A stretch of 64,000 nt of DNA, taken from positions 1 through 64,000 of the forward strand of contig JAHCAK010000003.1 of NCBI GenBank assembly GCA_019634955.1. Direction: 5' to 3'. Positions 11,164 to 34,925 of this stretch are shown one piece after another. Position numbers and translations under genes: made by a program. Position 1 is the stretch's first letter. Every line of letters begins with the position of its first letter. This DNA comes from Burkholderiales bacterium (GTDB lineage Bacteria > Pseudomonadota > Gammaproteobacteria > Burkholderiales > Usitatibacteraceae). Below the pieces are notes generated by a model. That model saw only the letters and a list, made by a program, of their open reading frames with translations, was not told where the DNA came from and searched no databases.

Positions 11164-12102
11164 CTACATCGCGCCGACTTCCTTGTAGAACTTCACCGCG
11201 CCGGGGTGGAAGGGCACGCCGATGTCCTCCGCCATCGCCTTCGGCGTGAGGCTCGCCATGGCCTTGTTGATGGCCGCCATGTCGGGGACGTTGGCGGCCA
11301 TCGCCTTGGCCATCTGGTAGACCGTGTTCTCGGGCAGGCTGCACGAGACCACGAGGTGCGCCGAGTACACGATCGCGGGCACGTCCTGGTCCTGCTTCGG
11401 ATAGGTGCCCCCCTTGATGGCGCCCTTCGTGTAGCCGGGGTTCATCTTGCGCATCGCCGCCACGATCTCGTCGGTCACCGGCACCATCTTGATGTCGCGC
11501 CCGGCAGCCACGTCCATGATCGAGGAGGCCGGGATCGTCGTGCCCAGGGTGAAGACCTGCGCGTGGCCGTCCTTCAGCAGCGCCGCGGCGTCGGTGTAGC
11601 TGTTCACGAAGCTCACCTTGGCGCTCTGGTAGGAGAGGCCCACGGCCTGCAGGATCTGCTGCGAGATGAGTTCGGCCGTGTTGCCCTTGGGCTGCACGGC
11701 GATCGACTTGCCCTTGAGGTCGGCGATGGAATTGATGCCGCTGCCGGCCAGCGCCACCACCTGGAAGTACTGCGGGTAGAGGTTCGCGAGCTGGCAGGCC
11801 TTCTCGACCTTCTTCGGGAAGGGCGCGCGGCCGTGCACCCCGTCCACCGAGGTGATGCTGTTGCCGAAGCCGACGTCGGCCTTGCCCTCGTCCACGCCGC
11901 GGACGTTGGCGATGCCGGCGCCCGGCATGGTCTGCACCTGCAGGCCGGGAATGGCCTTCTCCCACATGTTCTTGAGCGCGCCGCCGAGCGGCACCCACAC
12001 GCCGCCCTGCGGGCCGGTCATGAGGCGGATGGTCTGCGCCTGCGCGGCGCCGGCGGCGAGGGCCGCGGCGACGGCCACGGCAAGGGACAGCTTGCGGGTC
12101 AT
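11164..12102 (-). CDS. TAXI-family TRAP transporter substrate-binding protein
   Basis: This 312-aa exported protein has a signal peptide ending AAQAQ near residue 23. The mature part carries the TAXI signature region (RLMTGPQGGVWVPLGGAL, near 26-43) and the DVGFGNSIT segment. It binds a substrate in the periplasm for the fused permease encoded next. The ATG is preceded by GGAG. Glutamate/glutamine-like or dicarboxylate substrates are known for the family; none can be assigned here. Confidence 0.93.
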   Translation of the reverse strand: MTRKLSLAVAVAAALAAGAAQAQTIRLMTGPQGGVWVPLGGALKNMWEKAIPGLQVQTMPGAGIANVRGVDEGKADVGFGNSITSVDGVHGRAPFPKKVEKACQLANLYPQYFQVVALAGSGINSIADLKGKSIAVQPKGNTAELISQQILQAVGLSYQSAKVSFVNSYTDAAALLKDGHAQVFTLGTTIPASSIMDVAAGRDIKMVPVTDEIVAAMRKMNPGYTKGAIKGGTYPKQDQDVPAIVYSAHLVVSCSLPENTVYQMAKAMAANVPDMAAINKAMASLTPKAMAEDIGVPFHPGAVKFYKEVGAM

Positions 12103-12213
12103 GGGATCTCCTCCGGTTGTCGGTTGGCCGCCCCGGTTGTGCCCCGGGGCTCGCCGGCGGAGTATCGCACGGCCCCCCCGCCGCGCGCATTGCTGCGCTG
12201 CACCGAGGCCGCC

Positions 12214-19453: not shown

Positions 19454-20524
19454 TCAGCGCAGCGCCCGGGCGAGCCAGAGCGCGGCGGTGAGGACCACGA
19501 CCGCGCCGCCCTGGTGCGCCGCGCCGAGCCCGACGGGGACCACCATCAGCAGCGTGAGGACCCCGAGGACGACCTGCCCGAGCGTCGCCGCGGCGAGGAC
19601 CCACGCGGCCGTGCGCGCCTCCGGCGGGCACGCGCGGTCGGCGAGGACGCGCCAGGCGAGCAGCCAGGCGAAGGCGAGCACCACGAGCGCGAGCGTGCGG
19701 TGCACGAACTGCACCGTGGCCATGTTGTAGCCGAAGTTGCGCCACCACGGCTCGATGAGGAGGATCTCGGCCGGCACCCACTGCCCGTTCATGAGCGGCC
19801 AGGTGTTGTAGGCGAAGCCGGCGCGGATGCCCGCGACCAGCCCCCCGGTGAGCGCCATGGCGAAGACGAGCGCGGCGAACGCGAGCCCGGCCCGGCGCAG
19901 CCCCGCCGGCGCGCCCGAGGGGGCGGGCCGCAGGACCTGGTGCGCGACCCAGAACATCGCGGCGTGGATGAGGAGCGCCAGGCCCAGGTGCGCGGTGAGG
20001 CGGAACTGGCTCACCTGCGGATCGTCGACCAGCCCGCTCTTCACCATGTACCAGCCCATGGCCCCCTGCAGCCCCCCCAGCACGAAGATGCCGCCGAGCT
20101 TCGCGGCGAGCGGGCCGTCCAGCCGCCCGCGCGCCCAGAACCAGGCGAACGGCACGAAGTAGGCCACGCCGATGAGGCGCCCCAGCAGCCGGTGGAAGTA
20201 CTCCCACCAGAAGATGGACTTGAAGCCCTCGACGTCCATGTCGTGGTTGCGCAGCTTGAACTCGGGGGTGAGCTTGTACTTCTCGAACTGCGCGGCCCAG
20301 TCCGCGTCGTCGAGCGGCGGGATCGTGCCGATGAAGGGCTGCCACTCGACGATGGACAGGCCCGAGTGGGTGAGGCGCGTGACCCCGCCCACGACGACCA
20401 TGGCGAAGACGAGGGCGCAGCAGGCGAGCAGCCACGCGGCGACCGGCCGGCGGCCGGCGGCGGCCGCGGAAGGGGCGGTTCCCGCCCCGGGGGAAGCGAC
20501 GAGGGAGGCGTTCACGGGGGTCAT
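19454..20524 (-). CDS. ctaA: Heme A synthase (COX15/CtaA)
   Basis: This 356-aa membrane protein oxidises the C8 methyl of heme O to make heme A. It has about eight hydrophobic helices and the expected paired heme-ligand histidines: YFHRLLGR (near 109), AHLGLALLIH (near 179-186), FVHRTLAL (near 275) and AAHQGG (near 337). It also has the N-terminal VGGVTRLTHSGLSIVEW motif. It is transcribed away from the oxidase-like cluster and shares the 153-base divergent region holding a Crp/Fnr-type palindrome. Its presence implies that at least one heme-copper enzyme in the cell uses heme A. Confidence 0.93.
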   Translation of the reverse strand: MTPVNASLVASPGAGTAPSAAAAGRRPVAAWLLACCALVFAMVVVGGVTRLTHSGLSIVEWQPFIGTIPPLDDADWAAQFEKYKLTPEFKLRNHDMDVEGFKSIFWWEYFHRLLGRLIGVAYFVPFAWFWARGRLDGPLAAKLGGIFVLGGLQGAMGWYMVKSGLVDDPQVSQFRLTAHLGLALLIHAAMFWVAHQVLRPAPSGAPAGLRRAGLAFAALVFAMALTGGLVAGIRAGFAYNTWPLMNGQWVPAEILLIEPWWRNFGYNMATVQFVHRTLALVVLAFAWLLAWRVLADRACPPEARTAAWVLAAATLGQVVLGVLTLLMVVPVGLGAAHQGGAVVVLTAALWLARALR

Positions 20525-20882: not shown

Positions 20883-21437
20883 ATGACCGCCATCCACTCC
20901 CCCGCCCAGCGCGTCTGGTGGAAGCAGCCCCTGGACCGCGTCGAAGGCACCTGGATCGTCATCGCCTTCGTCTGGTGCCTGGTGATGTTCTTCATGATGC
21001 CGTACTGGCACATCTACGGTAAGCAGAACCTCTCCAACGAGGCCTACCGCACCACGCCCGAGGCCTACGTGGCGAAGACCCAGGCCATGGTGGACAAGTA
21101 CACCGTGCGCACCGCCACCGAGCAGAACATCCCGGTCGTGCACCCGGTGCCCGGCAGCGACGTCTACCTCATCGCCCGGCTCTGGAACTTCTGGCCCATC
21201 CTCGAGCTGGAGGAGGGCCAGACCTACAAGCTGCACATCATGTCGACCGACTGGCTGCACGGCTTCTCGCTGCAGCCCGAGAACATCAACGTGCAGATCC
21301 ACCCGGGCTACGAGCACGTGATGACCATCACGCCCACCAAGGAAGGCACGTACTCGATCATCTGCAACGAGTACTGCGGGATCAACCACCACACGATGGC
21401 GAGCAAGCTCTACGTCGTGAAGCCGAAGAAGAGCTAG
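20883..21437 (+). CDS. Heme-copper enzyme subunit II with CuA site
   Basis: This 184-aa protein has one N-terminal membrane helix (about 24-41) and a periplasmic cupredoxin domain. The CuA ligands are complete: H126 in DWLHGF, then C161-x3-C165-x3-H169-x2-M172 in CNEYCGINHHTM. The short length and single anchor helix match B-family (ba3-like) enzymes rather than aa3 oxidases. It would accept electrons from a soluble cytochrome c or cupredoxin and pass them to subunit I. It lies 12 bases before the subunit I gene. Confidence 0.92.
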   Translation: MTAIHSPAQRVWWKQPLDRVEGTWIVIAFVWCLVMFFMMPYWHIYGKQNLSNEAYRTTPEAYVAKTQAMVDKYTVRTATEQNIPVVHPVPGSDVYLIARLWNFWPILELEEGQTYKLHIMSTDWLHGFSLQPENINVQIHPGYEHVMTITPTKEGTYSIICNEYCGINHHTMASKLYVVKPKKS

Positions 21438-21449
21438 GGGGAGAGCGCC

Positions 21450-23171
21450 ATGGCCGTCAACCGCAATTTCCGCACCTGCCCGTCCACCGGCCTCGTCTAC
21501 CACGAGCCGGCCGAGAAGCTCATCCGCTGGAACGCCGTCGCGGGGGTGGTCTCGCTCCTCGTGGGCGGGGTCCTCGCGCTCCTGGTCACGCTCACGCGCT
21601 GGCCCGCGGTGAAGCTGCTGCCGCCCGACTGGTTCTACCTCGCGCTCACCGCGCACGGGCTGGACATGCTCGTCTTCTGGATCATCTTCTTCGAGATCGC
21701 GGTGCTCTACTTCGCGGCCTCGACGCTGCTCAAGTGCCGGCTGGCCACGCCCAAGGTCGCCTGGGCCGCCTTCTGGCTCATGATCGTCGGCGCGCTCATG
21801 AACAACTTCGCGGTGTTCAAGGGCGATTCCAGCGTCATGTTCACCTCCTACGTGCCGATGGGGGCCCACCCGCTGTTCTACCTCGGGCTCATCCTGTTCG
21901 CCGTCGGCGCGCTCATCGCCGTGTTCGTGTTCTTCGGCACGCTGGTCGTGGGCAAGGCCGAGAAGACCTACAACGGCTCGGTGCCGCTGGTGACCTTCGG
22001 CGCCATCACCGCGGCCATCATCGCCACCTTCACCATCGCCGCGGGCGCGATCATCCTCATCCCGACCTTCCTCTGGTCGGTGGGGCTGGTGAGCCACATC
22101 GACTCCCTCATGTACCGCACGGTGTGGTGGGGCTTCGGGCACTCCTCGCAGCAGATCAACGTCGCCGCCCACGTGTCGGTGTGGTACGCCATCGCCGCCA
22201 TCGTCTTCGGCGCCAAGCCGATGAGCGAGAAGGTGAGCCGCATGGCCTTCGTGCTCTACATCCTGTTCCTGCAGCTCGCGAGCGCGCACCACCTGCTCGC
22301 CGACCCGGGCCTCACCTCCAACTGGAAGATCTTCAACACCAGCTACGCCATGTACCTCGCCGTGCTCGCCTCCATGGTGCACGGGCTCACGGTGCCGGGC
22401 GCGATCGAGGTGGCCCAGCGCGAGAAGGGCTTCAACAAGGGCTTCTTCGAGTGGCTGCGCAAGGCCCCCTGGGGCAACCCCTGCTTCTCCGGGATGTTCA
22501 TCTCCCTCGTGGGCTTCGGCTTCCTGGGCGGCATCTCCGGGGTGATGATGGGCACCGAGCAGCTCAACCTCATCATCCACAACACCATCTACGTGCCGGG
22601 CCACTTCCATGCGACGGTCGTCGTGGGCACCACGCTCGCCTTCATGGCCCTCACCTACTTCCTCATCCCGACCCTCTTCCGCCGCGAGCTCATGTTCCCG
22701 GGGATGGCCAAGTGGCAGCCCTACGTCTACGGCCTGGGGATGTGCGCCTTCTCGGTCTTCATGATGGGCGCGGGGACGCTCGGCGTGCCGCGCCGGCACT
22801 GGGACATGGCCTTCTCGGGCGCGATCCTGCCGCACGAGTTCCCGGGCACGGCCTACCTGATGATGGGCATCATGGCCGTCTCGGGCATCGCCGCGGTCGT
22901 GGGCGGCGCGATGTACCTGCTGATCACCGTGGGCTCGGTGTTCTTCGGCAGGAAGATCGAGACGCCCGGCTTCAAGCGCGTGCCGGTGCGCGAAGGCATG
23001 GCCCCCCCGCCGGCTCCCGTGGCGGTGGCGCCGGCCGGGCACGGCGCGATCGGCCTGGGCGGGTTCGTCGCCCCCGGCACCTTCGTCCTGGCGATGATCT
23101 TCCTCGTGTCGTTCGTCCTCTACTACTTCGTCAACTGGAAGTACCTGTCGACCGTCTGGCCGATGAACTAG
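21450..23171 (+). CDS. B-family heme-copper subunit I lacking the active-site tyrosine
   Basis: This 573-aa polytopic protein has all six histidine ligands: H69 and H387 for the low-spin heme, H385 for the active-site heme, and H231, H280 and H281 for the second metal. The LADPG segment after the HH pair is B-family-like. Oxygen reductases of this type have GHPxVY with the tyrosine four residues after the first metal histidine. Here the sequence is GHSSQQ and position 235 is Gln. Nitric oxide reductases also lack this tyrosine. The enzyme may reduce NO or act unusually on oxygen. Its neighbours CtaB, Sco and a CuA subunit show it is a complete respiratory enzyme. Confidence 0.85.
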   Translation: MAVNRNFRTCPSTGLVYHEPAEKLIRWNAVAGVVSLLVGGVLALLVTLTRWPAVKLLPPDWFYLALTAHGLDMLVFWIIFFEIAVLYFAASTLLKCRLATPKVAWAAFWLMIVGALMNNFAVFKGDSSVMFTSYVPMGAHPLFYLGLILFAVGALIAVFVFFGTLVVGKAEKTYNGSVPLVTFGAITAAIIATFTIAAGAIILIPTFLWSVGLVSHIDSLMYRTVWWGFGHSSQQINVAAHVSVWYAIAAIVFGAKPMSEKVSRMAFVLYILFLQLASAHHLLADPGLTSNWKIFNTSYAMYLAVLASMVHGLTVPGAIEVAQREKGFNKGFFEWLRKAPWGNPCFSGMFISLVGFGFLGGISGVMMGTEQLNLIIHNTIYVPGHFHATVVVGTTLAFMALTYFLIPTLFRRELMFPGMAKWQPYVYGLGMCAFSVFMMGAGTLGVPRRHWDMAFSGAILPHEFPGTAYLMMGIMAVSGIAAVVGGAMYLLITVGSVFFGRKIETPGFKRVPVREGMAPPPAPVAVAPAGHGAIGLGGFVAPGTFVLAMIFLVSFVLYYFVNWKYLSTVWPMN

Positions 23172-23193: not shown

Positions 23194-24093
23194 ATGAACG
23201 AGGTTGTCGCCCCCGCCGGCTCGCTCGCCGGCCACGCAAGGCTCTTCTTCGACCTGTTCAAGCTGCGCATCGGGTTCGCGATCGGGCTCACCGCGCTCGC
23301 GGGGGCCCTCGCGGTCCCCGGGGCGGCGGTCTCCGCCGTGCAGGTGGCGGTGCTGGTGGCGTGCGTCGTCGCGGCCTCCGCCTCGGCCGGCGCGTTCAAC
23401 CAGTACGTGGAGCGCGACATCGACGCGCGCATGGCGCGCACGCGGCGCCGCGCCTTCGTCACCGGGCGGCTCGTCCACGGGCCGTTCTGGCTGGGTGTGA
23501 TCGGCCTCATGCTCGCGCTCGCGGTCTGCGCCGCCGCGGTCGCCGTGAACCCGCTCTCGGCCCTGTTCGTCTTCCTCGGGGCGTTCTTCTACGGGGTCGT
23601 CTACACGGTGATCCTCAAGCGCCGCACCTGGCTCAACATCGTGATCGGCGGGCTCGCCGGCAGCTTCGCCGTTCTCGCGGGCGCCACGGGCGTGGCCCCG
23701 GGCGAGATCGGCCCCGTGGCCCTGTCGCTCGCGTGGGTCCTGTTCCTCTGGACGCCGCCGCACTTCTGGAGCCTCGCCATCGCCTGCCACGACGACTACC
23801 GCGCCGCGGGCGTGCCGATGCTGCCGGTGGTGGTGGGCGACGCCCGCGCCGCGCGCGCCGTGCTCGGCGGCACGGTGGCGCTGGTCGCCTCCTCGTTCCT
23901 GCCGCTCGCCTTCGGGCTGGGCCCCCTTTACGCCGCCGGCGCCGCCGTCGGGGGCTTCCTCTTCGTCCGCGCGGCCTCGCGGCTGGCGGCCGCGCCTTCG
24001 CGCGAGACCGCCCTCGCGAGCTTCCACGCCTCGCTCGCCCAGCTCACGCTCCTCCTCGCCGGGGTGATCGCGGACGCGGCGTGGCGGGGCTAG
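23194..24093 (+). CDS. ctaB: Protoheme IX farnesyltransferase (heme O synthase)
   Basis: This 299-aa UbiA-type prenyltransferase adds a farnesyl chain to heme B to form heme O, the precursor used by CtaA. It has the first acidic motif region NQYVERDIDARMARTRRRA (about 68-86) and a second segment FLWTPPHFWSLAIACHDDYR (about 184-203), within about eight membrane helices. It lies 22 bases after subunit I, so its heme product probably serves that enzyme. The Sco gene begins immediately after. Confidence 0.94.
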   Translation: MNEVVAPAGSLAGHARLFFDLFKLRIGFAIGLTALAGALAVPGAAVSAVQVAVLVACVVAASASAGAFNQYVERDIDARMARTRRRAFVTGRLVHGPFWLGVIGLMLALAVCAAAVAVNPLSALFVFLGAFFYGVVYTVILKRRTWLNIVIGGLAGSFAVLAGATGVAPGEIGPVALSLAWVLFLWTPPHFWSLAIACHDDYRAAGVPMLPVVVGDARAARAVLGGTVALVASSFLPLAFGLGPLYAAGAAVGGFLFVRAASRLAAAPSRETALASFHASLAQLTLLLAGVIADAAWRG

Positions 24094-24098
24094 CCCCC

Positions 24099-24929
24099 GT
24101 GGGCACCGGGTGCCGAACGCGCTGGCTGCCGACGGCGGCCGCGCTCGCCTTCGGGGTCGTCCTCGGTTCCGTGCAGGCGCGAGCGGAAACCGAGGGCGCC
24201 ACCCTGGAGGCGGGCGCGGCGCTCGAGCGCAGCCAGCGCGCCCTCGGTACCGCCGTGGGCGACCACGCCTTCCGCGCGGCCGACGGCAGGCCGCTGCGCC
24301 TCGCGGAGCTGCGCGGCCGCCCCGTCCTGGTGAACTTCGTCTACACCGGCTGCTCGCAGGTCTGCCCCACGACGACGCGCTTCCTCGCCCGCGCCGTGAA
24401 CGAGGCCGACCGCACCCTCGGCCCCGGCCGCTACGCCGTGGCGACCATCGGCTTCAACTACCCTTACGACACGCCCGAGGCGATGCGGGCCTTCGCGAAG
24501 CAGCAGGGCATCGAACGCGCGGACTGGCACTTCCTCAGCCCCGAGGCCGGCACCATCGAGGCCGTGACGCGCGAGCTGGGCTTCAGCTTCGCCGCCTCCG
24601 CGGGCGGCTTCGACCACCTCACCCAGGTGACGATCCTCGACGCGGGCGGGCGCGTGGCCGCCCAGGTCTACGGCGAGGACTTCGCGGTGCCCATGCTGGT
24701 CGACCCCCTGAAGGCGCTGCTCACCGGCGCGCCGCTGCCCGAGATCACCCTCGGCAGCGTGGTCGAGCGCGTGCGGCTGCTCTGCACGGTGTACGACCCG
24801 CGCACCGGGCGCTACCGCCTCGACTACCGCATCGTGCTCGAGATCCTTACCGGCAGCTCCATCGTGATCGCGGTCCTCGCCTACCTCCTGCGGGAATGGG
24901 TGCGCAGCCGGCGCCTGCGCGCGGGCTGA
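24099..24929 (+). CDS. SCO1/SenC copper chaperone with C-terminal membrane anchor
   Basis: This 276-aa thioredoxin-fold protein delivers copper to the CuA site. The copper ligands are C85 and C89 in GCSQVCPTT and H173 in GFDHLTQ. Residues 1-29 look like a signal sequence. A C-terminal hydrophobic helix (about 245-264) followed by basic residues should anchor it in the inner membrane. GTG 24099 is preferred because it begins five bases after the ctaB stop; GTG 24081 in the same frame is an alternative. Its place after subunits II and I supports a CuA assembly role. Confidence 0.88.
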   Translation: MGTGCRTRWLPTAAALAFGVVLGSVQARAETEGATLEAGAALERSQRALGTAVGDHAFRAADGRPLRLAELRGRPVLVNFVYTGCSQVCPTTTRFLARAVNEADRTLGPGRYAVATIGFNYPYDTPEAMRAFAKQQGIERADWHFLSPEAGTIEAVTRELGFSFAASAGGFDHLTQVTILDAGGRVAAQVYGEDFAVPMLVDPLKALLTGAPLPEITLGSVVERVRLLCTVYDPRTGRYRLDYRIVLEILTGSSIVIAVLAYLLREWVRSRRLRAG

Positions 24930-24939
24930 GGGGCGCGCC

Positions 24940-26877
24940 GTGCTTCGCCTCCTCCAGCGGTTCCTGCAGCGCCTGTTCCTGCTGGCCGAGCGCGCCGCCA
25001 ACGCCGTCTTCGGCGAGCGGCTGAACCCCCTCTACCACCTCGGGGCGCTCAGCTACTGGCTCTTCTGGGTCGTGGTCGCCACCGGGCTCTACCTCTACGC
25101 GTTCTTCGACACCAGCGTGACCGGGGCGTACGCCTCCGTCGAGCGGCTCACCCACGACCAGAAGTGGGCCGGCGGCATCATGAGGAGCCTGCACCGCTAT
25201 GCCTCCGACGGAATGGTGCTCACGATGGCGCTGCACCTCCTGCGCCACTTCGCGTTCGACCGCCACCGGGGGTTCCGCTGGTTCTCCTGGGTGAGCGGCG
25301 TGGTCGTGCTGTGGCTCGTGTACGCCTCCGGCATCAACGGCTACATGCTGCCCTGGGACCAGCTCGCGCAGTTCACCGTCACCGCCACGGCCGAGTGGTT
25401 CGACGCGCTGCCCGTGTTCAACGGGCTGCTCATCCGCAACTTCCTCACCGAGGAGAGCGTGAACGACCGCTTCTTCTCGCTGCTGTCCTTCCTGCACATC
25501 GGCCTGCCCCTGGGCGTGCTCGCGCTGCTCTGGATCCACACGCATCGCGTCCCGCAGGCGAAGACGACGCCGCCGCGCCCGCTCATGGCGGCGCTGGGCG
25601 CCGCGCTCGTGGCCCTGTCGGTCGTGAAGCCGGCCCTCAGCCAGGCGCCGGCGAACCTCGCCATGACCGCGACCTCCATCGGGTTCGACTGGTTCTACCT
25701 GCCCACCTACGCCCTGCTCTACGAGTGGTCGCCGGCCTCGCTCTGGGCCCTCACGGGCGGGCTCACGCTGCTCGCGGCGCTCGCGCCGTGGCTGCCGCCC
25801 AAGTTCGGCCGTCGCGCGCGGCGCAGCTTCCACGTGCTGGCCAACCCCGACAACCGCATCGTCGCGATGAAGGAGGACGAGACGCTGCTCGACGGCTGCC
25901 TGCGCGAGGGCCTGCCCATGCCCTTCGACTGCCGCAACGGCGGCTGCGGCGTGTGCAAGTGCACGGTGGAGCACGGCGAGGTGGCGCTGGGCCCCTACCA
26001 GGAAAGCGCGCTCACGGCCGGGGAGCGCCGCGCCGGCCGCGTGCTCGCCTGCGTCGCGAAGCCCCTCTCCGACGTGGAGATCACCTACGAGCCCGCCGGC
26101 GACGCCGCGCGGCCCGTGCAGGTGCACGAGGCGCGCGTGGCCGCCATGGACCGCCTCGCGCCCGACGTGATGCGCGTGCGCCTCGAGCTCCCGGGGGGCG
26201 AGCGGATGGCCTTCTACGCCGGCCAGTACATCAACATCCTGCTGGACGACGGGCAGAAGCGCGCCTTCTCCTTCGCGACGCCCCCGCACGAGGAGGGCCC
26301 CATCGAGCTGCACATCCGCCTCGTGGAGGGCGGGCGCTTCACCACCCACGTCTTCACCGCGATGAAGGTCGGCGACCGCGTCCGCTTCGAGGGGCCGGTG
26401 GGCTCCTTCTTCCTGCGCGAGGAGGGCGACAAGCCCGTGATCTTCGTGGCCGGCGCCACCGGCTTCGCGCCGGTGAAGAGCATGCTCGAGCACGCCTTCC
26501 ACGCCGGGATCTCGCGCCGGATGGTCCTCTACTGGGGCACGCGCACGCTGGCCGACATGTACCTGCGCGAGCTTCCGGAGCGCTGGGCGAAGGAGCACGC
26601 CAACTTCAGCTTCGTGCCCGTGCTCTCCGACCCGCGCCCCGAGGACGGGTGGCAGGGCCGCACGGGGCTCGTGCACGAGGCGATCCTCGCCGACTACCCC
26701 GACCTCGCCGGGCACCGCATCTACGCCTGCGGCTCGGTGGCGATGGTGCAGGCCGCGCAGCCCGCCTTCGCGCGGCAGGGGCTGTCGCCCGACGACTGCT
26801 TCTCCGACGCCTTCAGCCTCGCCCCGCGCATCCACGCCGAGGAAGCCGACCTCGTGCGGCTGGGAGGCCGGCCATGA
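24940..26877 (+). CDS. Cytochrome b / [2Fe-2S] ferredoxin / FAD-NAD(P) reductase fusion
   Basis: This 645-aa three-part fusion starts at GTG. Residues 1-290 are a compact cytochrome b with heme ligands H85, H99, H186 and H200, paired 14 apart, and a D250-W-F-Y-L motif resembling the quinol-site PEWY. Residues 293-388 are a plant-type ferredoxin with C331-x4-C336-x2-C339-x31-C371. Residues 393-640 are a ferredoxin-reductase module with the FAD motif RAFSFA (441-446), the nucleotide motif GATGFAP (505-511) and YACGS (595-599). It could move electrons between NAD(P)H and the quinone pool through the membrane. The direction is unknown. It overlaps the next gene by 4 bases. Confidence 0.88.
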   Translation: MLRLLQRFLQRLFLLAERAANAVFGERLNPLYHLGALSYWLFWVVVATGLYLYAFFDTSVTGAYASVERLTHDQKWAGGIMRSLHRYASDGMVLTMALHLLRHFAFDRHRGFRWFSWVSGVVVLWLVYASGINGYMLPWDQLAQFTVTATAEWFDALPVFNGLLIRNFLTEESVNDRFFSLLSFLHIGLPLGVLALLWIHTHRVPQAKTTPPRPLMAALGAALVALSVVKPALSQAPANLAMTATSIGFDWFYLPTYALLYEWSPASLWALTGGLTLLAALAPWLPPKFGRRARRSFHVLANPDNRIVAMKEDETLLDGCLREGLPMPFDCRNGGCGVCKCTVEHGEVALGPYQESALTAGERRAGRVLACVAKPLSDVEITYEPAGDAARPVQVHEARVAAMDRLAPDVMRVRLELPGGERMAFYAGQYINILLDDGQKRAFSFATPPHEEGPIELHIRLVEGGRFTTHVFTAMKVGDRVRFEGPVGSFFLREEGDKPVIFVAGATGFAPVKSMLEHAFHAGISRRMVLYWGTRTLADMYLRELPERWAKEHANFSFVPVLSDPRPEDGWQGRTGLVHEAILADYPDLAGHRIYACGSVAMVQAAQPAFARQGLSPDDCFSDAFSLAPRIHAEEADLVRLGGRP

Positions 26878-27374
26878 ACCGCCCGCTCGCCTGGGGCCTG
26901 CAGGCCGTCCTCTACGGCGCCTTCGCGGCGTTCCTCGGCTACTTCTCGACCTCGCCCGCCTTCGCGCCGCTGCCCCCGGACCACGCGCTGATCCGCCTGT
27001 CGCTCAATCACGCCGGCCAGCGCAAGTTCCCCTGCCGGACGCGCACCGCCGAGGAACTCGCCAAGCTCGCGCCCAACATGCGCGCCGCCGAGGACTGCCC
27101 GCGCGAGCGCGCCCCGGTGCGGGTGTCGGTGGAGCTCGACGGGCGCAGCGTGGCCGACATCGAGGCGAGGCCCGCGGGCCTTTCGCGCGACGGCGCCTCC
27201 GTCGCCTACCGGCGCATCCCCGTGCCCGCGGGCACGCACCGCCTGCGCGTGGCCCTGGCCGACGACGCGGCGGGCACCTTCGACCGCGTCCGCGAGGAAG
27301 CGGTGAGCCTGCCGCCCGGGCGCGTGCTGGTGATCGATTTCGAGCCCGGCAAGGGCGGGATCGTGCTGCGCTAG
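26874..27374 (+). CDS. Uncharacterised exported or membrane-anchored protein
   Basis: This 166-aa protein has an N-terminal hydrophobic segment (about 7-25), either an uncleaved anchor or a signal. The rest resembles a small beta-rich domain with two cysteines (FPCRTR near 43 and EDCPRE near 66). The ATG overlaps the stop of the cytochrome b/reductase fusion. I do not recognise the family. Its fixed place between the two cytochrome b fusions suggests a periplasmic partner or assembly factor for them. Confidence 0.72.
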   Translation: MNRPLAWGLQAVLYGAFAAFLGYFSTSPAFAPLPPDHALIRLSLNHAGQRKFPCRTRTAEELAKLAPNMRAAEDCPRERAPVRVSVELDGRSVADIEARPAGLSRDGASVAYRRIPVPAGTHRLRVALADDAAGTFDRVREEAVSLPPGRVLVIDFEPGKGGIVLR

Positions 27375-27399: not shown

Positions 27400-28986
27400 A
27401 TGGCCGCCCCCGCGATCGCCCTCCCCGCCCCCGGCCGCGCCGCCGCCGCCGTGGAGCGCGTCGACGCGCTCTTCGACGCCGCCTTCGGACAGGGGCTCAA
27501 TCCCCTGCGCCACCTCGGCGCCCTCGGCTACCACTTCCTGTGGATCTGCTGCGCCTCCGGCATCTGGATCTACGTGGGCTTCGACACCAGCGCCACGGGG
27601 GCCTGGGCCAGCCTCGACGCGATGGATCGCGGCGAGTGGCCGCTGGGCGCCTTCGCCCGCGCGCTGCACCGCTACAGCGCCGACGCCCTGGTGGTCGTGA
27701 CGCTGCTGCACCTCGCGCGCGAGGCCGCCCGGCGGCACTACGCCGCGTTCCGGCGCTTCGCCTGGCTCACGGGCCTCTTCGCCCTCGCGCTCCTGTTCCT
27801 CGCCGGCATCAACGGCTACTGGCTCGCCTGGGACCAGCTCGCGCAGTGGAGCCTCACCGCCACAATCGAGTGGCTCGACGCGCTGCCTGTCTTCGACGGG
27901 TCGCTCGCGCGCAACGTGATCGACGACGGGCAGGTGAACGACCGCTTCTTCTCGCTGCTCATCTTCGTGCACATCGGCCTGCCCCTCGCCCTGCTCGGCG
28001 CGCTCTGGGCGCACGTCCAGCGCGTGAGCCCGGCGCGCACGGCCCCGCCGCGGGCCCTCGGCTGGGGCACGGCCGCCATGCTCGCGGCGCTGTGCCTCGC
28101 CAAGCCCGTGGCGCTCATGCCCGCGGCGGATCTCGCCTTCCTCCCGGCGCGCATCCCCCTCGACTGGTTCTACCTGTTCCCCCACGTCGCCATGGCATCG
28201 CTGGGGCCGGCCGGCCTCTGGGCCGCAACGGCGGCGTTCTTCGCCGCCCTCGCGGCGCTTCCCTGGGCCACCCGCGTGCCGCGCGCGCCGGCCGCCCGCG
28301 TGAACCTCGCCAACTGCAACGGCTGCGCGCGCTGCTTCGCCGACTGCCCCTACGACGCCGTGGTGATGGTCGCGCGCACCGACGGCCGGCACCACCCGCG
28401 GCAGGCGCAAGTCGACCCGATGCTGTGCGCCGGCTGCGGCATCTGCACCGGCGCCTGCCCCTCCTCGACGCCCTTCCGCCGCGGCGAGACGCTCGCCACC
28501 GGTATCGACATGCCGCAGGCCGCCATCGGCGAGCTGCGCGCGCGGCTCGAGTCGCGCACCGCCGCGCTCACGGGCACTCCCCGCGTGGTGGTGCTGGGCT
28601 GCCGCTGGTCCGCGCCGGCGGCCACCCTCGAGGATGCCTCGACCGCCTGCGTGGAATTCCTCTGCGCAGCGATGGTGCCGCCCTCGTTCGTGGAGTACGC
28701 CCTGCGCGCCGGCGCCGACGGCGTGCTCCTCGCCGGCTGCCGCGAAGGCGATTGCGAATTCCGCACCGGCACCGCCCTCGCGGCCGAGCGGCTCGCCGGC
28801 GCGCGCAAGCCCGCCCTTCGGCCAAGCGTGCCGCGCGAGCGCGTGCGCCAGGTCCACGCCGGCATCACCGACGCCGCCGCGCTTCGCGCCGCGCTCGACG
28901 ACTTCCGCGCCGCGCTCGCCCGCCTGGGCCCGCGCGCGGCCGACCATCCCCATCCGCCCAAACGCCAGGAGTCGCGCCATGGCTAG
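27400..28986 (+). CDS. Cytochrome b / 2[4Fe-4S] / MvhD-like fusion
   Basis: This 528-aa fusion starts with the same cytochrome b type: ligands H90, H104, H191 and H205, and D255-W-F-Y-L. Two [4Fe-4S] motifs follow, C306-x2-C309-x2-C312-x3-C316 and C343-x2-C346-x2-C349-x3-C353. Residues 395-500 match the MvhD iron-sulfur subunit family, with C401, C417, C422, C447 and C452 in GCREGDCEFRTG. MvhD proteins link hydrogenases or dehydrogenases to heterodisulfide reductases. Fusion to cytochrome b suggests exchange of electrons between a low-potential partner and the quinone pool. It is a domain-shuffled paralogue of the fusion at 24940. Confidence 0.87.
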   Translation: MAAPAIALPAPGRAAAAVERVDALFDAAFGQGLNPLRHLGALGYHFLWICCASGIWIYVGFDTSATGAWASLDAMDRGEWPLGAFARALHRYSADALVVVTLLHLAREAARRHYAAFRRFAWLTGLFALALLFLAGINGYWLAWDQLAQWSLTATIEWLDALPVFDGSLARNVIDDGQVNDRFFSLLIFVHIGLPLALLGALWAHVQRVSPARTAPPRALGWGTAAMLAALCLAKPVALMPAADLAFLPARIPLDWFYLFPHVAMASLGPAGLWAATAAFFAALAALPWATRVPRAPAARVNLANCNGCARCFADCPYDAVVMVARTDGRHHPRQAQVDPMLCAGCGICTGACPSSTPFRRGETLATGIDMPQAAIGELRARLESRTAALTGTPRVVVLGCRWSAPAATLEDASTACVEFLCAAMVPPSFVEYALRAGADGVLLAGCREGDCEFRTGTALAAERLAGARKPALRPSVPRERVRQVHAGITDAAALRAALDDFRAALARLGPRAADHPHPPKRQESRHG

Positions 28987-30397
28987 CCTGCAAACCGCCA
29001 ACCCGTCCGCCGCCCTGCCCGCCGCCCGCCGCGCGGCCGGCACCTCCTTCATCCTGCCGGTCGAGCGCGACGCCTCGGCGCGCCTCGCCACCGGCTGGCT
29101 CGTCCTCGGCGTGGCCGCGCTCGTGGGCTCGGGGCTCTTCTCGGTGCTGCTCGTGCTCGCGCGCACCCCCGGGCTCAAGGAGCTCTTCCCGGTCGCGAAC
29201 TTCTTCCAGGTGGCGCTGGTGGCGCACGTGGACCTCTCCGTGCTGGTGTGGTTCCTCGCCTTCGCCGGCGTGCTGTGGAGCCTCGCCTGCGACGGCCGCG
29301 CCCTCGTGCTGGGATGGGCCTCGCTCGCCCTCACGGCCGCGGGCACGCTCGCCCTGTGCGTGGCCCCGCTGCTTCGCGACGCCGTGCCGGTGCTCGCCAA
29401 CTACATTCCCGTGATCGACAACACGGCGTTCCTCGCCGGGCTCGGCGCCATCGGCGCGGGCGTGGCCCTCGCGGTGGCCCGCACGTTCGTGGCCACCCGG
29501 TCGTCGGGCGGCGTGCTCGACGGGGCCTCGGCGCTGCGCTGGGGCATCGTCGGCTCGGCGGTGGCCACGGCCGTGGCGCTCGCCGCCTTCGGGTGGTCGT
29601 GGCTGGAGATCTCGCCGCACCTCGAGCGCAAGACCTACTTCGAGCTGCTCTTCTGGGGCGGCGGCCACGTCCTGCAGTTCACCTGGACGCTCCTCATGCT
29701 GGCCGGCTGGCTGTGGCTCGCCTCGGCCCTCGGGCTCGCCGTGCCGCTCTCCCCGCGCGTGGCGCTCCTCGTCTTCACGATCGCGCTCGCCTCCGTGTTC
29801 GTGACCCCGGCGATCTACCTGTCCCACCCCGTGGCCTCGGTCGAGCACCACAAGCTGCAGACCTGGCTCATGCGCTTCGGCGGCGGGCTCGCCATCCCGC
29901 CCATCCTGCTCGCGCTGCTGTGGTCGATGCGGGGCCTGCGCGCGCTCGACGCGGAGCGCCGCCCGATCTTCGGCGCGCTGGCCGCCTCCATCGGCCTCTT
30001 CGCCGCCGGCGGCCTCATCGGCTTCGCCATCAACGGGCCCAACGTGCGCATCCCGGCTCACTACCACGGCTGCATCGTCGGCGTGACGCTCGCCTTCATG
30101 GGGCTCACCTACCACCTGCTGCCGAGGCTCGGCTTCGCCACGCCGCGCTCGCGGCTGGCGGCATGGCAGCCCTGGCTCTACGGCGGCGGCCAGCTCATGC
30201 ACATCGTGGGCCTGGTGTGGTCGGGCGGCTACGGCGTCGAGCGCAAGGTGGCCGGCGCGGCGCAGGTGCTGCGCACGCCGCAGGAAGTGGCCGGCATGGG
30301 GCTCATGGGCCTGGGCGGCCTCGTCGCCATCCTCGGCGGCCTCGCTTTCGTGGTGGTGGTGATCGGGGCCATGCGCCGGCAGGAGGCCCGCGGGTGA
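28979..30397 (+). CDS. Second heme-copper subunit I-like protein, also without tyrosine
   Basis: This 472-aa polytopic protein carries all six histidines: H83, H230 in FWGGGH, H290-H291, and H361 and H363 in PAHYHG. The residue four after H230 is F234, not Tyr. I also see no tyrosine at the helix VII position used by cbb3 oxidases. Both subunit I proteins here have a tyrosine ten residues before the HH pair (Y280 here, Y270 in the other). There is no CuA partner; it is flanked by the cytochrome b/MvhD fusion (8-base overlap) and a polytopic protein (GTGA overlap). A quinol- or ferredoxin-linked NO reductase is possible. Confidence 0.82.
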   Translation: MASLQTANPSAALPAARRAAGTSFILPVERDASARLATGWLVLGVAALVGSGLFSVLLVLARTPGLKELFPVANFFQVALVAHVDLSVLVWFLAFAGVLWSLACDGRALVLGWASLALTAAGTLALCVAPLLRDAVPVLANYIPVIDNTAFLAGLGAIGAGVALAVARTFVATRSSGGVLDGASALRWGIVGSAVATAVALAAFGWSWLEISPHLERKTYFELLFWGGGHVLQFTWTLLMLAGWLWLASALGLAVPLSPRVALLVFTIALASVFVTPAIYLSHPVASVEHHKLQTWLMRFGGGLAIPPILLALLWSMRGLRALDAERRPIFGALAASIGLFAAGGLIGFAINGPNVRIPAHYHGCIVGVTLAFMGLTYHLLPRLGFATPRSRLAAWQPWLYGGGQLMHIVGLVWSGGYGVERKVAGAAQVLRTPQEVAGMGLMGLGGLVAILGGLAFVVVVIGAMRRQEARG

Positions 30398-31203
30398 GGC
30401 AGCCGGACCGTCACGCGCGGTCGCTTGCCGCCACCGCGGCGGCCTGCGCCGCCCTCGTGCTCGTGGTCGTGGCCTCCAGCGCGTGGCTGCGGCTCGCCGC
30501 GCCCGCCTGCCCGCCCGGCGGCTGCGAGGGATTCGCCCTGGCCGACGCCGTGCGGCTCGCGCACCGGATCGCCGCGATGGGCGTCACCGTGGCCGCCCTC
30601 GTCCTCGTCGCGCTGGCGTGGAAGCCGCCGGCGCGGTGGGGGATGCGCGCCGCCGCGGTGCTCGTGCTGCTGCTGGTGGCCGCCCTGGCGATCGTGGGGC
30701 GCCGCTCCGCCGGCGCGGCGCCACCGGCCGTCCTGCTCGCCAACCTGCTGGGTGGGCTCACCCTGCTGGGCCTGGCCGTCGGCCTCGCGACGGCCGCCCG
30801 CGCCGGGCCCGGGCCCGTGCGGGGCGCCCCCCTCGTGGCCGCGACGATCCTCGCCGCCGCGATCGCCACCGGCGCCTTGCTCGCCACCGCCGCACCGGCC
30901 GATCCGGCGGCGCTCGCCCTCGCGCACCGCGGCCTGGCGTGGGCCGCGCTCGTCGCCTGGGGGCTGCTCGCCCTCGGCACCGGGCGGCCGCGCGGGGAGC
31001 GCCTGGCGGCAGGCACGGTCGCGGCCCTGCTCGCCACCGAGGCGGTGCTCGCCATCGCCGCGCCGGCGAGCCCGTCCCTGCGCTGGCTGCACAACCTCCT
31101 CTCGACGGCGGCGATGTGCGCGGCCATCGCCTGCGCAGCCGGCTGCGGGGCGCCGTCGCCACGGGCCGCGGACGGGCCGCGCGAGGCGCTCGCGAGGCCC
31201 TGA
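30394..31203 (+). CDS. Polytopic membrane protein, weakly CtaA/COX15-like
   Basis: This 269-aa protein starts with GTG overlapping the previous stop (GTGA). It has about eight hydrophobic segments. WLRLAAPACPPGGC followed by LAHRIAAMG is reminiscent of the VRLxGxGLxCPDWPxC and histidine region of heme A synthases. A late histidine pair, LAHRGLAW and RWLHNLLS, could also bind heme. The match is too weak to call an enzyme. It may handle heme for, or be a subunit of, the second heme-copper protein. Confidence 0.6.
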   Translation: MRQPDRHARSLAATAAACAALVLVVVASSAWLRLAAPACPPGGCEGFALADAVRLAHRIAAMGVTVAALVLVALAWKPPARWGMRAAAVLVLLLVAALAIVGRRSAGAAPPAVLLANLLGGLTLLGLAVGLATAARAGPGPVRGAPLVAATILAAAIATGALLATAAPADPAALALAHRGLAWAALVAWGLLALGTGRPRGERLAAGTVAALLATEAVLAIAAPASPSLRWLHNLLSTAAMCAAIACAAGCGAPSPRAADGPREALARP

Positions 31204-31220: not shown

Positions 31221-31967
31221 ATGGGCGAAACATCCGCCCAAGACCCCGCCGTCATGCAACCCGGAGAAGCTCGGCCCCGCGGACCGGACATCCCGGTCGA
31301 GCAGTTCCTCGTCAACCTTCCGCTCTTCAGCGACCTCACGCCCGAGGAGATCAAGCGCATCGCCGCCGGCACGCGCCGCATCTACGCGACCAAGGGCGAT
31401 GCGCTCTTCTCGCGGGGCGAGCGCTGCGAGGGCTTCCACGTGGTGCTGTACGGGCAGGTGAAGCTCTTCGTCACCTCGCCCCAGGGCTCCGAGAAGGTGA
31501 TCGAGATCATGGGCCCCGGCATCTCCTTCGGCGAGGCGATCCTCTTCATGGACATCCCCTACGTCGTGTCGGCGCAGGCCCTCAAGGACTCGCTCCTGCT
31601 GCACGTGTCGAAGGCCGTCGTCTTCGAGGAGATCGAGCGCGACCCGCGCCTCGCCCGGCGCCTGCTCGCCGGGATGTCGCGCAAGCTCCACCAGCTCATC
31701 CGCGACGTCGAGGCCTACTCCCTGCGCTCGGGGCTGGAGCGCGTGATCGGCTACCTGCTTCGCGACGACGCGCTCGACCAGGGCGCGGCCAACGCGGCGA
31801 GCGTGACGCTGCCGGCCAACAAGATGATCGTGGCCTCGCGGCTGAACCTCACGCCCGAGTACTTCTCGCGCATCCTGCACGAGCTGGCCGACGCCGGCCT
31901 CATCGTCATGGAAGGCCGGTCGGTGACGGTGCCCGACGTCGAGCGGCTTCGCACCTACACCGGCTGA
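31221..31967 (+). CDS. Crp/Fnr-family regulator, DNR-like
   Basis: This 248-aa regulator has a cyclic-nucleotide-type sensory domain (about 30-150) and a winged helix-turn-helix (about 175-240, RLNLTPEYFSRILHELADAG). No N-terminal cysteine cluster is present, so it is not an oxygen-sensing FNR. The segments EAILFMDIPYVVSAQAL and MSRKLHQLIRDVEAYSL strongly resemble DNR proteins, which sense NO through heme. ATG 31221 is used, with GGGG seven bases before; ATG 31254 is an alternative. It is the probable reader of the palindrome at 20579. Confidence 0.85.
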   Translation: MGETSAQDPAVMQPGEARPRGPDIPVEQFLVNLPLFSDLTPEEIKRIAAGTRRIYATKGDALFSRGERCEGFHVVLYGQVKLFVTSPQGSEKVIEIMGPGISFGEAILFMDIPYVVSAQALKDSLLLHVSKAVVFEEIERDPRLARRLLAGMSRKLHQLIRDVEAYSLRSGLERVIGYLLRDDALDQGAANAASVTLPANKMIVASRLNLTPEYFSRILHELADAGLIVMEGRSVTVPDVERLRTYTG

Positions 31968-31975
31968 GGCGGGCC

Positions 31976-33145
31976 ATGGGAGCGCGCGCCACCTCCACCC
32001 GCAGGAAGCCCGCGCGCGCCGCCGCGAGGCCGCTCGCGCCCGAGGTCGACGCCTGGCTCAAGGCCGCCGCCCTCGACGTGGCCGACGACGGCATCGTGAT
32101 CTCGGACGCCACGACCCCCGACGCGCCCATCGTCTACGTGAGCCCGTCCTTCGAGCGGCTGGTGGGCTACCCGGCCGAGGAGATCCTCGGGACCAACTGC
32201 CGCATGGTGCAGGGGCCCGGCACCGACCGCGAGACGGTGAAGCAGATCGCGATCGCGCTGCAGGAGGGCCGCGTCTTCCAGGGCGAGATCCTCAACTACC
32301 GCAAGGACGGCACGCCGTTCTGGAACTTCCTGCGCATCGCGCCCATCCGCGACGACTCGGGAAGGGTCACCCACCACGTGGGGACGCAGTCGGACGTGAC
32401 CGAGCTGCACCAGGCGCGCGAGCGCGAGCAGGAGCTGGTGGACGCGGTGGCGCACGCCTCGCGCGTGCGCACGGTCGCCGCGCTGGGCGCCTCCCTCGCG
32501 CACGAGGTGAACCAGCCGCTCGCGGCCATCGTCGCCAACGCGGAGGCGGCGCTGCGCTACCTCGAGTCCTGCAACACCGGCGAGATCCGCGAGGCCCTCA
32601 CCGCCATCCGCGACGACGCGCGGCGCGCGGGCGAGATCATCCTGCGGGCGCACCGCCTCGTGCGCAAGCAGCCCGTGGCGCCCGAGCCGGTGGACGCCGC
32701 GCGCGTCGCCCGCGAGGTGCTCGCCTTCACGCGCGTGCGGCTGCGCCACGCCGGCGTCGAGGCGCGCCTCGACTGCGCGGCGGCGCTGCCGCGCGTGCTG
32801 GCCGACCCGGTGCAGCTCTACCAGGCGCTCCTGAACCTCGTGGTGAACGCGATCGACGCGATGGAAGGCAACCCGCCCGAGGCGCCGCGCACGCTCGCGA
32901 TCGCCGCCGAAGGCGAGGACGGCGGCGTGCGCATCCGCGTGACCGACTCGGGGCATGGCGCCGACGACGAGACGCTCGCGCGCATGGCGCAGACCTTCCA
33001 CACCACCAAGGCGCGCGGCACCGGCCTCGGCCTGCTCGTCACGCGCTCGCTCGTGGAGGCGCACGGCGGCCGGCTCGACGTGGCCCGCAACGCCGGCCGC
33101 GGCCTCACCTTCACCATCCACCTGCCGGGAGAGACACCGACATGA
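31976..33145 (+). CDS. LOV-domain sensor histidine kinase
   Basis: This 389-aa protein has an N-terminal PAS domain (about 30-145) with every LOV hallmark: GTNCRMVQ with the photoactive cysteine C75, N107 in LNYRKDG, N117 in FWN and Q138 in VGTQSDVT. LOV domains bind flavin and form a cysteine adduct in blue light. The kinase half has the phospho-acceptor H176 in LAHEVNQPLAAI, an N-box LNLVVNAIDAM, and G-boxes DSGHG and GTGLGLLV, as in FixL-type kinases. It overlaps the FixJ-type regulator by 4 bases. Some LOV-like folds sense redox instead of light. Confidence 0.88.
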   Translation: MGARATSTRRKPARAAARPLAPEVDAWLKAAALDVADDGIVISDATTPDAPIVYVSPSFERLVGYPAEEILGTNCRMVQGPGTDRETVKQIAIALQEGRVFQGEILNYRKDGTPFWNFLRIAPIRDDSGRVTHHVGTQSDVTELHQAREREQELVDAVAHASRVRTVAALGASLAHEVNQPLAAIVANAEAALRYLESCNTGEIREALTAIRDDARRAGEIILRAHRLVRKQPVAPEPVDAARVAREVLAFTRVRLRHAGVEARLDCAAALPRVLADPVQLYQALLNLVVNAIDAMEGNPPEAPRTLAIAAEGEDGGVRIRVTDSGHGADDETLARMAQTFHTTKARGTGLGLLVTRSLVEAHGGRLDVARNAGRGLTFTIHLPGETPT

Positions 33146-33795
33146 TCGCCGCCGAAGGCGTGAGCCTCTGCATCGTCGACGACGACCCCTCCGTGCGTTC
33201 GTCCCTCACCCGGCTCATGCGCGCCGAGGGCATCGAGCCGATGGCCTTCGCCACGGCCGAGGATTTCCTGGAGCACCTGCCCAACCTCCCCGGCCCGTGC
33301 TGCGCCCTGCTCGACATCGGCCTGCCGGGAAAGAGCGGCCTCGAGCTGCACGCGCGCATCACGGCCGTGCGGCCGGAGATCGCGGTGGTCTTCCTCACGG
33401 GCCACGGCGACGTGCCCGGCGCCGTCACCTCGATGAAGCGCGGCGCGGTGGACTTCCTCCTGAAGCCGGTGGAGGCGGCCACGCTACTCGCGGCGCTCAC
33501 GCGGGCGATCGAGCGCGCCCGGGCGGCCTCGGCCGAGAAGGCCACGAAGCGCGACCTCGCCCTCCACTACGGGAGCCTCACGCCGCGCGAGCGCGAGGTG
33601 CTCACCCACGTGATCGCCGGCAAGCGCAACAAGGTGATCGCCGCCGAGATCGGCACCACGGAGAAGACCGTCAAGGTGCACCGCGGGCGCATCATGGAGA
33701 AGATGAAGGTGCGCTCCGTGGCCGAGCTGGTCCGCGCCGCGGACAGGCTGGGCATCCGGCCCACGCCCTCCCCGCCGCGCGGCAAGCCGTCATGA
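33142..33795 (+). CDS. FixJ-family response regulator
   Basis: This 217-aa protein has a receiver domain with D58 as phospho-acceptor (ALLDIGLPG), acidic pocket D13-D14-D15, T86 and K108. A LuxR-type helix-turn-helix follows (about 140-205, LTPREREVLTHVIAGKRNKVIA). ATGA-type overlap with the LOV kinase upstream and with the HD-GYP gene downstream marks a single signalling unit. It is the likely phosphorylation partner of the LOV kinase. Its targets are not visible from sequence. Confidence 0.93.
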   Translation: MIAAEGVSLCIVDDDPSVRSSLTRLMRAEGIEPMAFATAEDFLEHLPNLPGPCCALLDIGLPGKSGLELHARITAVRPEIAVVFLTGHGDVPGAVTSMKRGAVDFLLKPVEAATLLAALTRAIERARAASAEKATKRDLALHYGSLTPREREVLTHVIAGKRNKVIAAEIGTTEKTVKVHRGRIMEKMKVRSVAELVRAADRLGIRPTPSPPRGKPS

Positions 33796-34925
33796 CCGAC
33801 CCCGCCCACGCCGACGCCCTGCACGCCCTCAATGCGGACGGGCCGCTGCGCGCGCGCATCCGCGAGATCCACTGGGCGGTGCGCTCGTTCCTGCCGTTCG
33901 TGGCCCGCGTGGCGGTGGCCCTCTACGACCCGAAGACCACCTACCTCAAGACCTTCGTGCACTCCAGCGACGGCGACGACCCGCTGCCGCACTACCAGGC
34001 GCCGCTGGGCGAGGTGCCCTCCCTCAAGCGCCTGCTCGACGAGAAGCGCCCGCGCGTGATCCAGAGCATGCTCACCTTCGAGACGCCGGAGAGCGAGCAT
34101 GCGCGGCGCCTCGGGCGGGCGGGCTACGCCGCGAGCTACACGATGCCGGTCTTCTCGAACGGCACCTTCCTCGGCTTCGTGTTCTTCAATTCCCGCCAGT
34201 CCGACGTCTTCACCGAGACGGCGCTCGCGCAGCTCGACATCTTCGGCCACCTCGTGTCGCTGCTGGTGATCCAGGAGCTCGCCGCGGTGCGCACGCTCTC
34301 GGCCGCGCTCGAGGGCGCGCGCCACCTCGTGCACGCGCGCGACGCGGAGACGGGGAGCCACCTCGACCGGATGTCGCGCTACGCGCGCCTCATCGCGCGC
34401 GCGCTCGCCGACACCCACGGGCTGGACGACGAGACCATCGAGCGCATCCACGCCTACGCGCCGATGCACGACATCGGCAAGATCGGCATCCCCGACGCGA
34501 TCCTGCTGAAGCCCGAGGGCCTCACTGACGGCGAGATGGAGGTGATGCGCACGCACGCCAACCGCGGCCAGGTGCTCCTCGACGACCTGCTCACGAACTT
34601 CGGGCTGGGCACGCTCACCGGGATCGACATCCTGAGGAACATCGCGCTCTTCCACCACGAGCGCATCGACGGGAAGGGCTACCCCTACGGGCTCGCGGGC
34701 GACGCGATCCCGCTCGAGGCGCGCATCGTCGCCGTGGCCGACGTGTTCGATGCCCTCACGAGCCGGCGCCCCTACAAGGAGGCCTACGCGAACGACGTGG
34801 CCTTCACGATGCTCGAGCAGCTGGCCGGCACGCACCTGGACCGCGACTGCGTGCTCGCCCTCCTCGGCCAGCCCGGCGAGGTGGCCGAGATCCAGCGCCA
34901 GTTCCGCGAGGACCCGTTCGGCTGA
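33792..34925 (+). CDS. GAF/HD-GYP domain protein, probable c-di-GMP phosphodiesterase
   Basis: This 377-aa protein has an N-terminal GAF-like sensory region (about 25-160) and a C-terminal HD-GYP domain. The metal-site motifs are HDIGKIGIP (near 226-234), HHERIDGKGYP (near 288-298) with an intact GYP, and a late DVFDALTSRRPYK. HD-GYP enzymes break down cyclic di-GMP. Its ATG overlaps the response-regulator stop. With two diguanylate cyclases at 47096-49373, the window encodes both making and breaking of this messenger. Confidence 0.92.
   Translation: MTDPAHADALHALNADGPLRARIREIHWAVRSFLPFVARVAVALYDPKTTYLKTFVHSSDGDDPLPHYQAPLGEVPSLKRLLDEKRPRVIQSMLTFETPESEHARRLGRAGYAASYTMPVFSNGTFLGFVFFNSRQSDVFTETALAQLDIFGHLVSLLVIQELAAVRTLSAALEGARHLVHARDAETGSHLDRMSRYARLIARALADTHGLDDETIERIHAYAPMHDIGKIGIPDAILLKPEGLTDGEMEVMRTHANRGQVLLDDLLTNFGLGTLTGIDILRNIALFHHERIDGKGYPYGLAGDAIPLEARIVAVADVFDALTSRRPYKEAYANDVAFTMLEQLAGTHLDRDCVLALLGQPGEVAEIQRQFREDPFG

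Follow-up and report, generated by a model that had tools for sequence, protein, structure and literature searches.

The gene at positions 24,940 to 26,877 of the DNA analysed here encodes a single protein in which a b6-type cytochrome b is joined to a [2Fe-2S] ferredoxin and an FAD/NAD reductase. We lean towards the reading that this fusion serves nirS denitrifiers as an entry arm, oxidising NAD(P)H and bringing its electrons into an eNOR-type nitric oxide (NO) reductase module. The window, meaning the whole stretch of 64,000 nucleotides, comes from contig JAHCAK010000003.1 (assembly GCA_019634955.1) of a Burkholderiales bacterium of the family Usitatibacteraceae. An earlier note, made from the letters of this DNA, had described the protein as a single-protein path between NAD(P)H and quinone; the operon setting, on which our reading turns, was absent from it.

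Domain anatomy and conservation of the fusion

The reading frame opens on GTG, stays open throughout its 645 amino acids and closes on TGA. The domain-architecture search that the earlier note had proposed returned four Pfam domains in order, namely Cytochrome_B (residues 26-201, 9e-24), Fer2 (residues 302-375, 1e-14), FAD_binding_6 (residues 399-490, 5e-16) and NAD_binding_1 (residues 502-607, 1e-22), all above cut-off. The same note had raised the worry that a frameshift or an assembly error joined separate genes. Because full-length orthologues occur in dozens of independent assemblies, a chimaeric origin is ruled out for practical purposes, and the uninterrupted frame represents a single intact protein.

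Five hydrophobic segments and the haem-bearing helix 78-105 give the membrane part six helices. Positive charges lie at the N-terminus, in the 200-214 loop and at the start of the tail, and negative charges in the 130-180 and 234-266 loops. Together, the helix count and this charge distribution predict a cytoplasmic reductase, with the GYMLPWD and DWF segments, the counterparts of the b6/bc1 Qo region, on the periplasmic side. The four histidines H85, H99, H186 and H200 form the two pairs of a cytochrome b/b6 with two b haems, and the domain matches PF00033. From homology with bc1, H85 and H186 presumably ligate the p-side haem and H99 and H200 the n-side haem, which adjoins the ferredoxin. 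In profile searches the membrane part aligned with cytochrome b6 and, up to helix F, with the mitochondrial cytochrome b. With cytochrome b6 and the bc cytochromes b (6rqf, 1q90, 8smr) it shares the four haem ligands at bc/b6-like spacing, the GY-LPWD and DWF (PEWY-like) motifs and similarity through helix F. Unlike bc complexes, the fusion has D for E at the PEWY position, giving a DWF variant, and carries a ferredoxin-reductase tail. Neither a Rieske protein nor cytochrome c1/f was found among the operon genes scanned with Pfam, which separates the operon from those of bc1/b6f complexes. The b6-type membrane part likewise differs from the membrane domain of NOX/STEAP/FRE enzymes, which are comparable by analogy only.

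The AlphaFold2 model of the fusion was usable (mean pLDDT 79), and Foldseek searches with the tail matched GcoB, benzoate dioxygenase reductase (BenC) and NqrF. GcoB (5ogx) and BenC (1krh) have the same Fer2-FAD-NAD order and motifs, at 37% and 28% identity in the Foldseek alignments, but in the fusion the reductase is joined to a diheme membrane cytochrome b. NqrF carries a similar Fer2-FAD-NAD module, whereas NqrF itself has one transmembrane helix and no haem. Residues typical of the Fer2-FAD-NAD (class IB) reductases were invariant in a 50-sequence alignment: the cluster cysteines C331, C336, C339 and C371 (CX4CX2C...C), R441 and S444, and the NAD motifs G505/T507/G508 and C597/G598/S599.

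More broadly, the haem histidines, cluster cysteines, DWFYL and the flavin and NAD motifs were kept in an 81-sequence set as well as in the 50-sequence alignment. Within DWFYL (residues 250-254), D250 and W251 were invariant and F252-Y253-L254 stood at 90% or more (50-sequence alignment). The four histidines, the p-side acids D140 and D250, and W251 were present in 91 of 91 FNR-tailed and 91 of 91 FlpD-tailed cytochromes b. The earlier note had thus placed the haem ligands, the complete [2Fe-2S] site and the quinol-site-like motif correctly, and its assignment of an FNR-type reductase holds, given the two Pfam domains and the conserved motifs.

Full-length orthologues were 85-89% identical within the genus and 56-65% identical elsewhere in the order, across further genera and families; over the whole set of about 80 betaproteobacterial loci the range was 55-89%. 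We retrieved 80 fusion loci from GTDB contigs, with 219 matches in all. The 80 loci were titled Betaproteobacteria/Burkholderiales or member genera, except for one Lysobacter and two labelled Proteobacteria/Pseudomonadota only. The operon of the contig titled 'Lysobacter sp.' (L010, JAMPXV010000092.1) encodes proteins as much as 95% identical to those of the window, and this title is probably wrong.

Table 1. Coordinates of the fusion, its domains and key residues, and neighbouring genes in the window
Feature	Positions	Strand	Basis
Hemerythrin-like protein, adjoins ctaA	18937..19440	+	
ctaA haem A synthase, divergent from operon	19454..20524	-	Pfam
Putative eNOR subunit II: one TM helix and CuA cupredoxin (H126..C161xxxC165xxxH169..M172 conserved)	20883..21437	+	Pfam, conservation
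Putative eNOR-type NO reductase subunit I: B-family heme-copper fold, Gln235 for cross-linked Tyr	21450..23171	+	sequence comparison
ctaB/cyoE haem O synthase	23194..24093	+	Pfam
SCO copper chaperone	24099..24929	+	
Cytochrome b-[2Fe-2S] ferredoxin-FAD/NAD reductase fusion, 645 aa	24940..26877	+	Pfam, conservation, AlphaFold2, Foldseek
b6-type cytochrome b domain, six helices including DWF (PEWY-like) helix pair	24940..25800	+	Pfam, profile alignment
H85, p-side haem (bL) ligand	25192..25194	+	invariant in relatives
H99, n-side haem (bH) ligand	25234..25236	+	invariant in relatives
H186, p-side haem (bL) ligand	25495..25497	+	invariant in relatives
H200, n-side haem (bH) ligand	25537..25539	+	invariant in relatives
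DWFYL (residues 250-254), Qo/PEWY-like motif, predicted periplasmic side	25687..25701	+	D250, W251 invariant
[2Fe-2S] ferredoxin domain (C331, C336, C339, C371)	25843..26064	+	Pfam, alignment
FAD-binding domain (R441..S444 motif)	26134..26409	+	Pfam, alignment
NAD-binding domain (AGATGFAP, CGS motifs)	26443..26760	+	Pfam, alignment
Orphan: one TM helix and periplasmic beta-sandwich; overlaps fusion gene end by 4 bases	26874..27374	+	
Second cytochrome b, 2x[4Fe-4S] and FlpD/MvhD tail	27400..28986	+	47% identity to fusion's cytochrome b, paralogue
Degenerate heme-copper subunit I	28979..30397	+	haem ligands H83, H361, H363 kept
CRP/FNR-family regulator, 3' end of operon; often present in relatives too	31254..31967	+	

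Operon context and the link to nirS

In the window, the fusion is the fifth gene of an eight-gene run that reads CuA subunit II, heme-copper subunit I, ctaB, SCO, fusion, small periplasmic protein, FlpD-tailed cytochrome b and degenerate heme-copper subunit. The same genes recurred together across the retrieved loci, with order and strand rearranged in some. One carrier of the operon, Simplicispira lacusdiani CPCC 100842 (L088), is cultivable.

Subunit I belongs to the B family, and its best solved relatives are the ba3 oxidases. In a 61-sequence set, its six haem/CuB histidines (H69, H231, H280, H281, H385, H387) were conserved, and the cross-linked tyrosine was replaced by a conserved glutamine, Gln235. 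Glutamine at this position defines eNOR, for which characteristic residues have been listed, and sNOR has asparagine there (PMC8756737 and its table). An sNOR identity was rejected because glutamine is present (PMC8756737). A case has been made that the related sNOR reduces O2 (PMC6967387). An ordinary B-family O2 reductase is disfavoured, the cross-linked tyrosine being glutamine throughout the 61-sequence set. Directly upstream of subunit I lies the cupredoxin subunit II expected of eNOR, with its CuA ligands conserved; in both the glutamine and the CuA subunit the operon resembles published eNOR (PMC8756737). A homologue of subunit I on a Thermus plasmid (46%) lies a few genes from nirS. 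Considering Gln235, the intact CuA ligands and this Thermus homologue near nirS, we treat the gene, on sequence grounds, as subunit I of an eNOR-type NO reductase.

In each of the 41 loci that extend at least 7 kb to either side of the fusion, an eNOR subunit I was present. Among 61 related genomes, eNOR was found in 12; 11 of these had the fusion, and the twelfth (G038, L187) had the FlpD form only. nirS was present in 12 of 12 fusion-bearing genomes, one of the 12 genes being a contig-end fragment, compared with 9 of 49 other relatives (Fisher p=1.7e-7, which is indicative only because the genomes are related to one another). Within the host's family, the corresponding counts were 10/10 with the fusion and 1/18 without it. 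Additionally, nirS lay inside the fetched flanks of 30 of the 101 loci, which had been chosen regardless of nirS. A nirK association was dropped, as 8 of the 61 relatives exceeded the nirK cut-off and not one of them carried the fusion. The window's genome also has a qNOR-type gene and a cbb3 oxidase, so eNOR is not the sole NO reductase of the host; bc1 is encoded elsewhere in the host genome (L007).

The degenerate heme-copper subunit retains H230 and Q233, and mostly E289-H290. Its third CuB histidine, H291, was found in only 37 of 63 relatives and was R, Y, S or Q in the remaining 26; 8 rows first assigned to this subunit (HCO1b) proved to be eNOR subunit I and were discounted. It had no match among solved structures by sequence. 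The subunit thus looks CuB-less, and it may be purely electron-conducting or regulatory. The orphan gene overlapping the end of the fusion encodes a small protein with a near-invariant cysteine pair, both cysteines being lost in the L149 row. Its gene nearly always adjoins those for cytochrome b and is duplicated in some loci (L014, L025); the AlphaFold model of the protein (pLDDT 94) had no clear PDB relative. A role as a cupredoxin electron carrier was rejected, with no cupredoxin match and no convincing metal site.

Other neighbours were observed at the edges of these operons. Hemerythrin-like genes stand beside eNOR in Defluviimonas (L168, 12195-12599) as well as in the window, perhaps for NO/O2 handling. 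The membrane ORF at positions 30457-31203 resembles CtaA only weakly and over the C-terminal region of that protein, with an E-value (1.6e-4) that misses the cut-off; it may be related to haem A synthase at half the usual size. Farther along lies a PAS histidine kinase (31976-33145) whose PAS domain carries the motif GTNCRMVQ, resembling that of LOV blue-light receptors; next come a response regulator of the LuxR/FixJ type (33142-33795) and, after it, a GAF-HD protein (33792-34925). In Thermomicrobium roseum (L170), a single ORF at 11443-13311, directly after an eNOR-like subunit I, aligns to both ctaA and ctaB.

Two alternative tails on the cytochromes b

The second cytochrome b of the operon carries a tail that matches the ferredoxin-FlpD part of HdrA2, at its C-terminal end. 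This FlpD (MvhD) tail sits on a cytochrome b and not on the HdrA flavoprotein, and in the fusion it is replaced by Fer2-FNR. A tree built from 157 cytochrome b domains placed all 73 with an FNR tail in a single clade (SH-aLRT 99); its rooting is not secure. One odd-tailed row, L041_1, was placed among the FlpD forms. Seven FlpD rows that seemingly had no cluster cysteines were mis-assigned FNR-tailed ORFs and were discounted.

The FlpD-tailed type is widespread in other Pseudomonadota beside eNOR and nirS. Outside Burkholderiales, a single FlpD-tailed cytochrome b was found in L153, L156, L159-L165 and a Defluviimonas plasmid (L168), and two tandem FlpD-tailed copies in L149, L152 and L158. 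A plasmid collection held no full-length fusion, its only operon of this kind being the FlpD-form one of Defluviimonas. Some loci have one tail only, with the FNR form alone in L033 and L182 and the FlpD form alone in L187, L168 and L153-L165, and the two tails therefore look interchangeable.

The simplest account of these sequences is that the FNR tail arose once, among FlpD-tailed cytochromes b, when the cytochrome b would have exchanged its Fer4-FlpD entry module for Fer2-FNR. On this account both modules would have the same function, the exchange of electrons with haem bH. Proteins of the FlpD/MvhD type carry electrons between HdrA and units linked to FAD/NAD(H), hydrogenase or formate, so replacing such a tail with an NAD(P)H module complete in itself makes good chemical sense.

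Proposed electron route and its alternatives

The fusion is always located in an eNOR operon, and its probable role is therefore to supply nitric oxide breakdown with electrons from NAD(P)H. In the proposed route, NAD(P)H would reduce FAD in the cytoplasm, and electrons would pass singly from FAD to the [2Fe-2S] cluster and on to haem bH (H99/H200). They would then cross the membrane to haem bL (H85/H186) and reach CuA of eNOR subunit II, either directly or via a quinone in the D140/D250-W251 pocket, after which eNOR would reduce two NO to N2O. The FlpD-tailed paralogue may do the same job with a different cytoplasmic donor. Solved reductases of the GcoB, BenC and NqrF class run from NADH to FAD to [2Fe-2S]. 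This class, together with a high-potential acceptor enzyme in the same operon, favours the direction from NAD(P)H to haem, by analogy, and the earlier note's statement that nothing indicates direction was too pessimistic. Transfer from the n-side to the p-side speaks against an entry arm, since it would use up membrane potential instead of building it, unusual behaviour in respiration.

Conservation of the Qo-like acids points to a quinone partner, in which case electrons might be delivered to the quinone pool and not straight to eNOR. The fusion would then be a haem-containing NAD(P)H:quinone oxidoreductase that reduces ubiquinone in the DWF pocket or in another one close to haem bH, and eNOR would draw its electrons by the conventional route of quinone pool, bc1 and cytochrome c. 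D140, D250 and W251 are invariant in both types of cytochrome b, bc1 is encoded elsewhere in the genome and the reductase module is NqrF-like, all of which fit such an enzyme. It would be redundant with other NADH:quinone enzymes, however, and it leaves the confinement to eNOR operons and the periplasmic partner unexplained; we regard it as the less probable outcome, though one to be taken seriously. The single-protein NAD(P)H:quinone path of the earlier note survives to this extent, but as a description it is incomplete, the fusion being one member of a conserved eNOR-type operon.

The same pocket could work in the opposite sense, as a Rieske-free quinol bifurcation. Of the two electrons leaving the quinol at the Qo-like pocket, one would go to CuA/eNOR, with NO reduction as the driving force, and the second would travel via bL and bH to [2Fe-2S]/FAD and NAD(P)+, or to [4Fe-4S]/FlpD in the paralogue. 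The b6-type scaffold with its Qo motif and acid, the low-potential n-side tails of both paralogues, and an operon that has a high-potential acceptor and no Rieske gene are consistent with this scheme. Against this, the solved relatives of the reductase module all run from NADH to [2Fe-2S], NAD+ reduction would need very low haem potentials, and the hosts include apparent heterotrophs with no need of NAD+ reduction, which makes bifurcation rather improbable. Still less probable, in our judgement, is a transmembrane reductase for assembly or detoxification, acting on periplasmic Cu(II), thiol or Fe(III) like NOX/STEAP/FRE and helping CuA/CuB maturation together with SCO. The SCO neighbour, the NOX/STEAP-like wiring from NAD(P)H to the periplasm and the nearly invariant cysteine pair of the small periplasmic protein point that way. 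However, assembly should not require a pair of cytochrome b paralogues plus another heme-copper-like subunit, and the conserved quinone-type motif would have no explanation.

The domain families involved are all known, and the protein sequences are already in public databases. Published eNOR is described with two subunits and, in the literature searched, with no dedicated NAD(P)H-linked cytochrome b. The closest printed hint of such proteins is a Chloroflexi ORF, RME88945.1, listed with cytochrome b6, DMSOR_beta-like Fe-S and FlpD domains and with its function not discussed (PMC8756737, Table A3); it differs from the cytochromes b of the present operon in an extra c-type cytochrome domain. We found neither a cytochrome b-ferredoxin-FNR fusion nor a cytochrome b in an eNOR operon in the literature searched, which did not cover the main PNAS 2024 eNOR study, where either may be mentioned. 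That literature likewise gave no statement of the electron donor of the little-studied eNOR-type NO reductases. The biochemistry of eNOR is reportedly treated by Murali et al. 2024.

Herein, the fusion offers a specific and testable candidate for the electron donor route of eNOR. If the entry-arm reading is true, environmental denitrifiers would have a direct link from NAD(P)H to NO/N2O turnover that circumvents bc1 and cytochrome c. If bifurcation were true instead, the operon would make NAD(P)H, or reduced FlpD-linked carriers in the case of the paralogue. The family joins a b6-type cytochrome b without a Rieske partner to an entry module that appears to have been exchanged, 4Fe-4S/FlpD for 2Fe-2S/FNR, while the quinone-type pocket was kept, making it a good model for the rewiring of cytochrome b modules.
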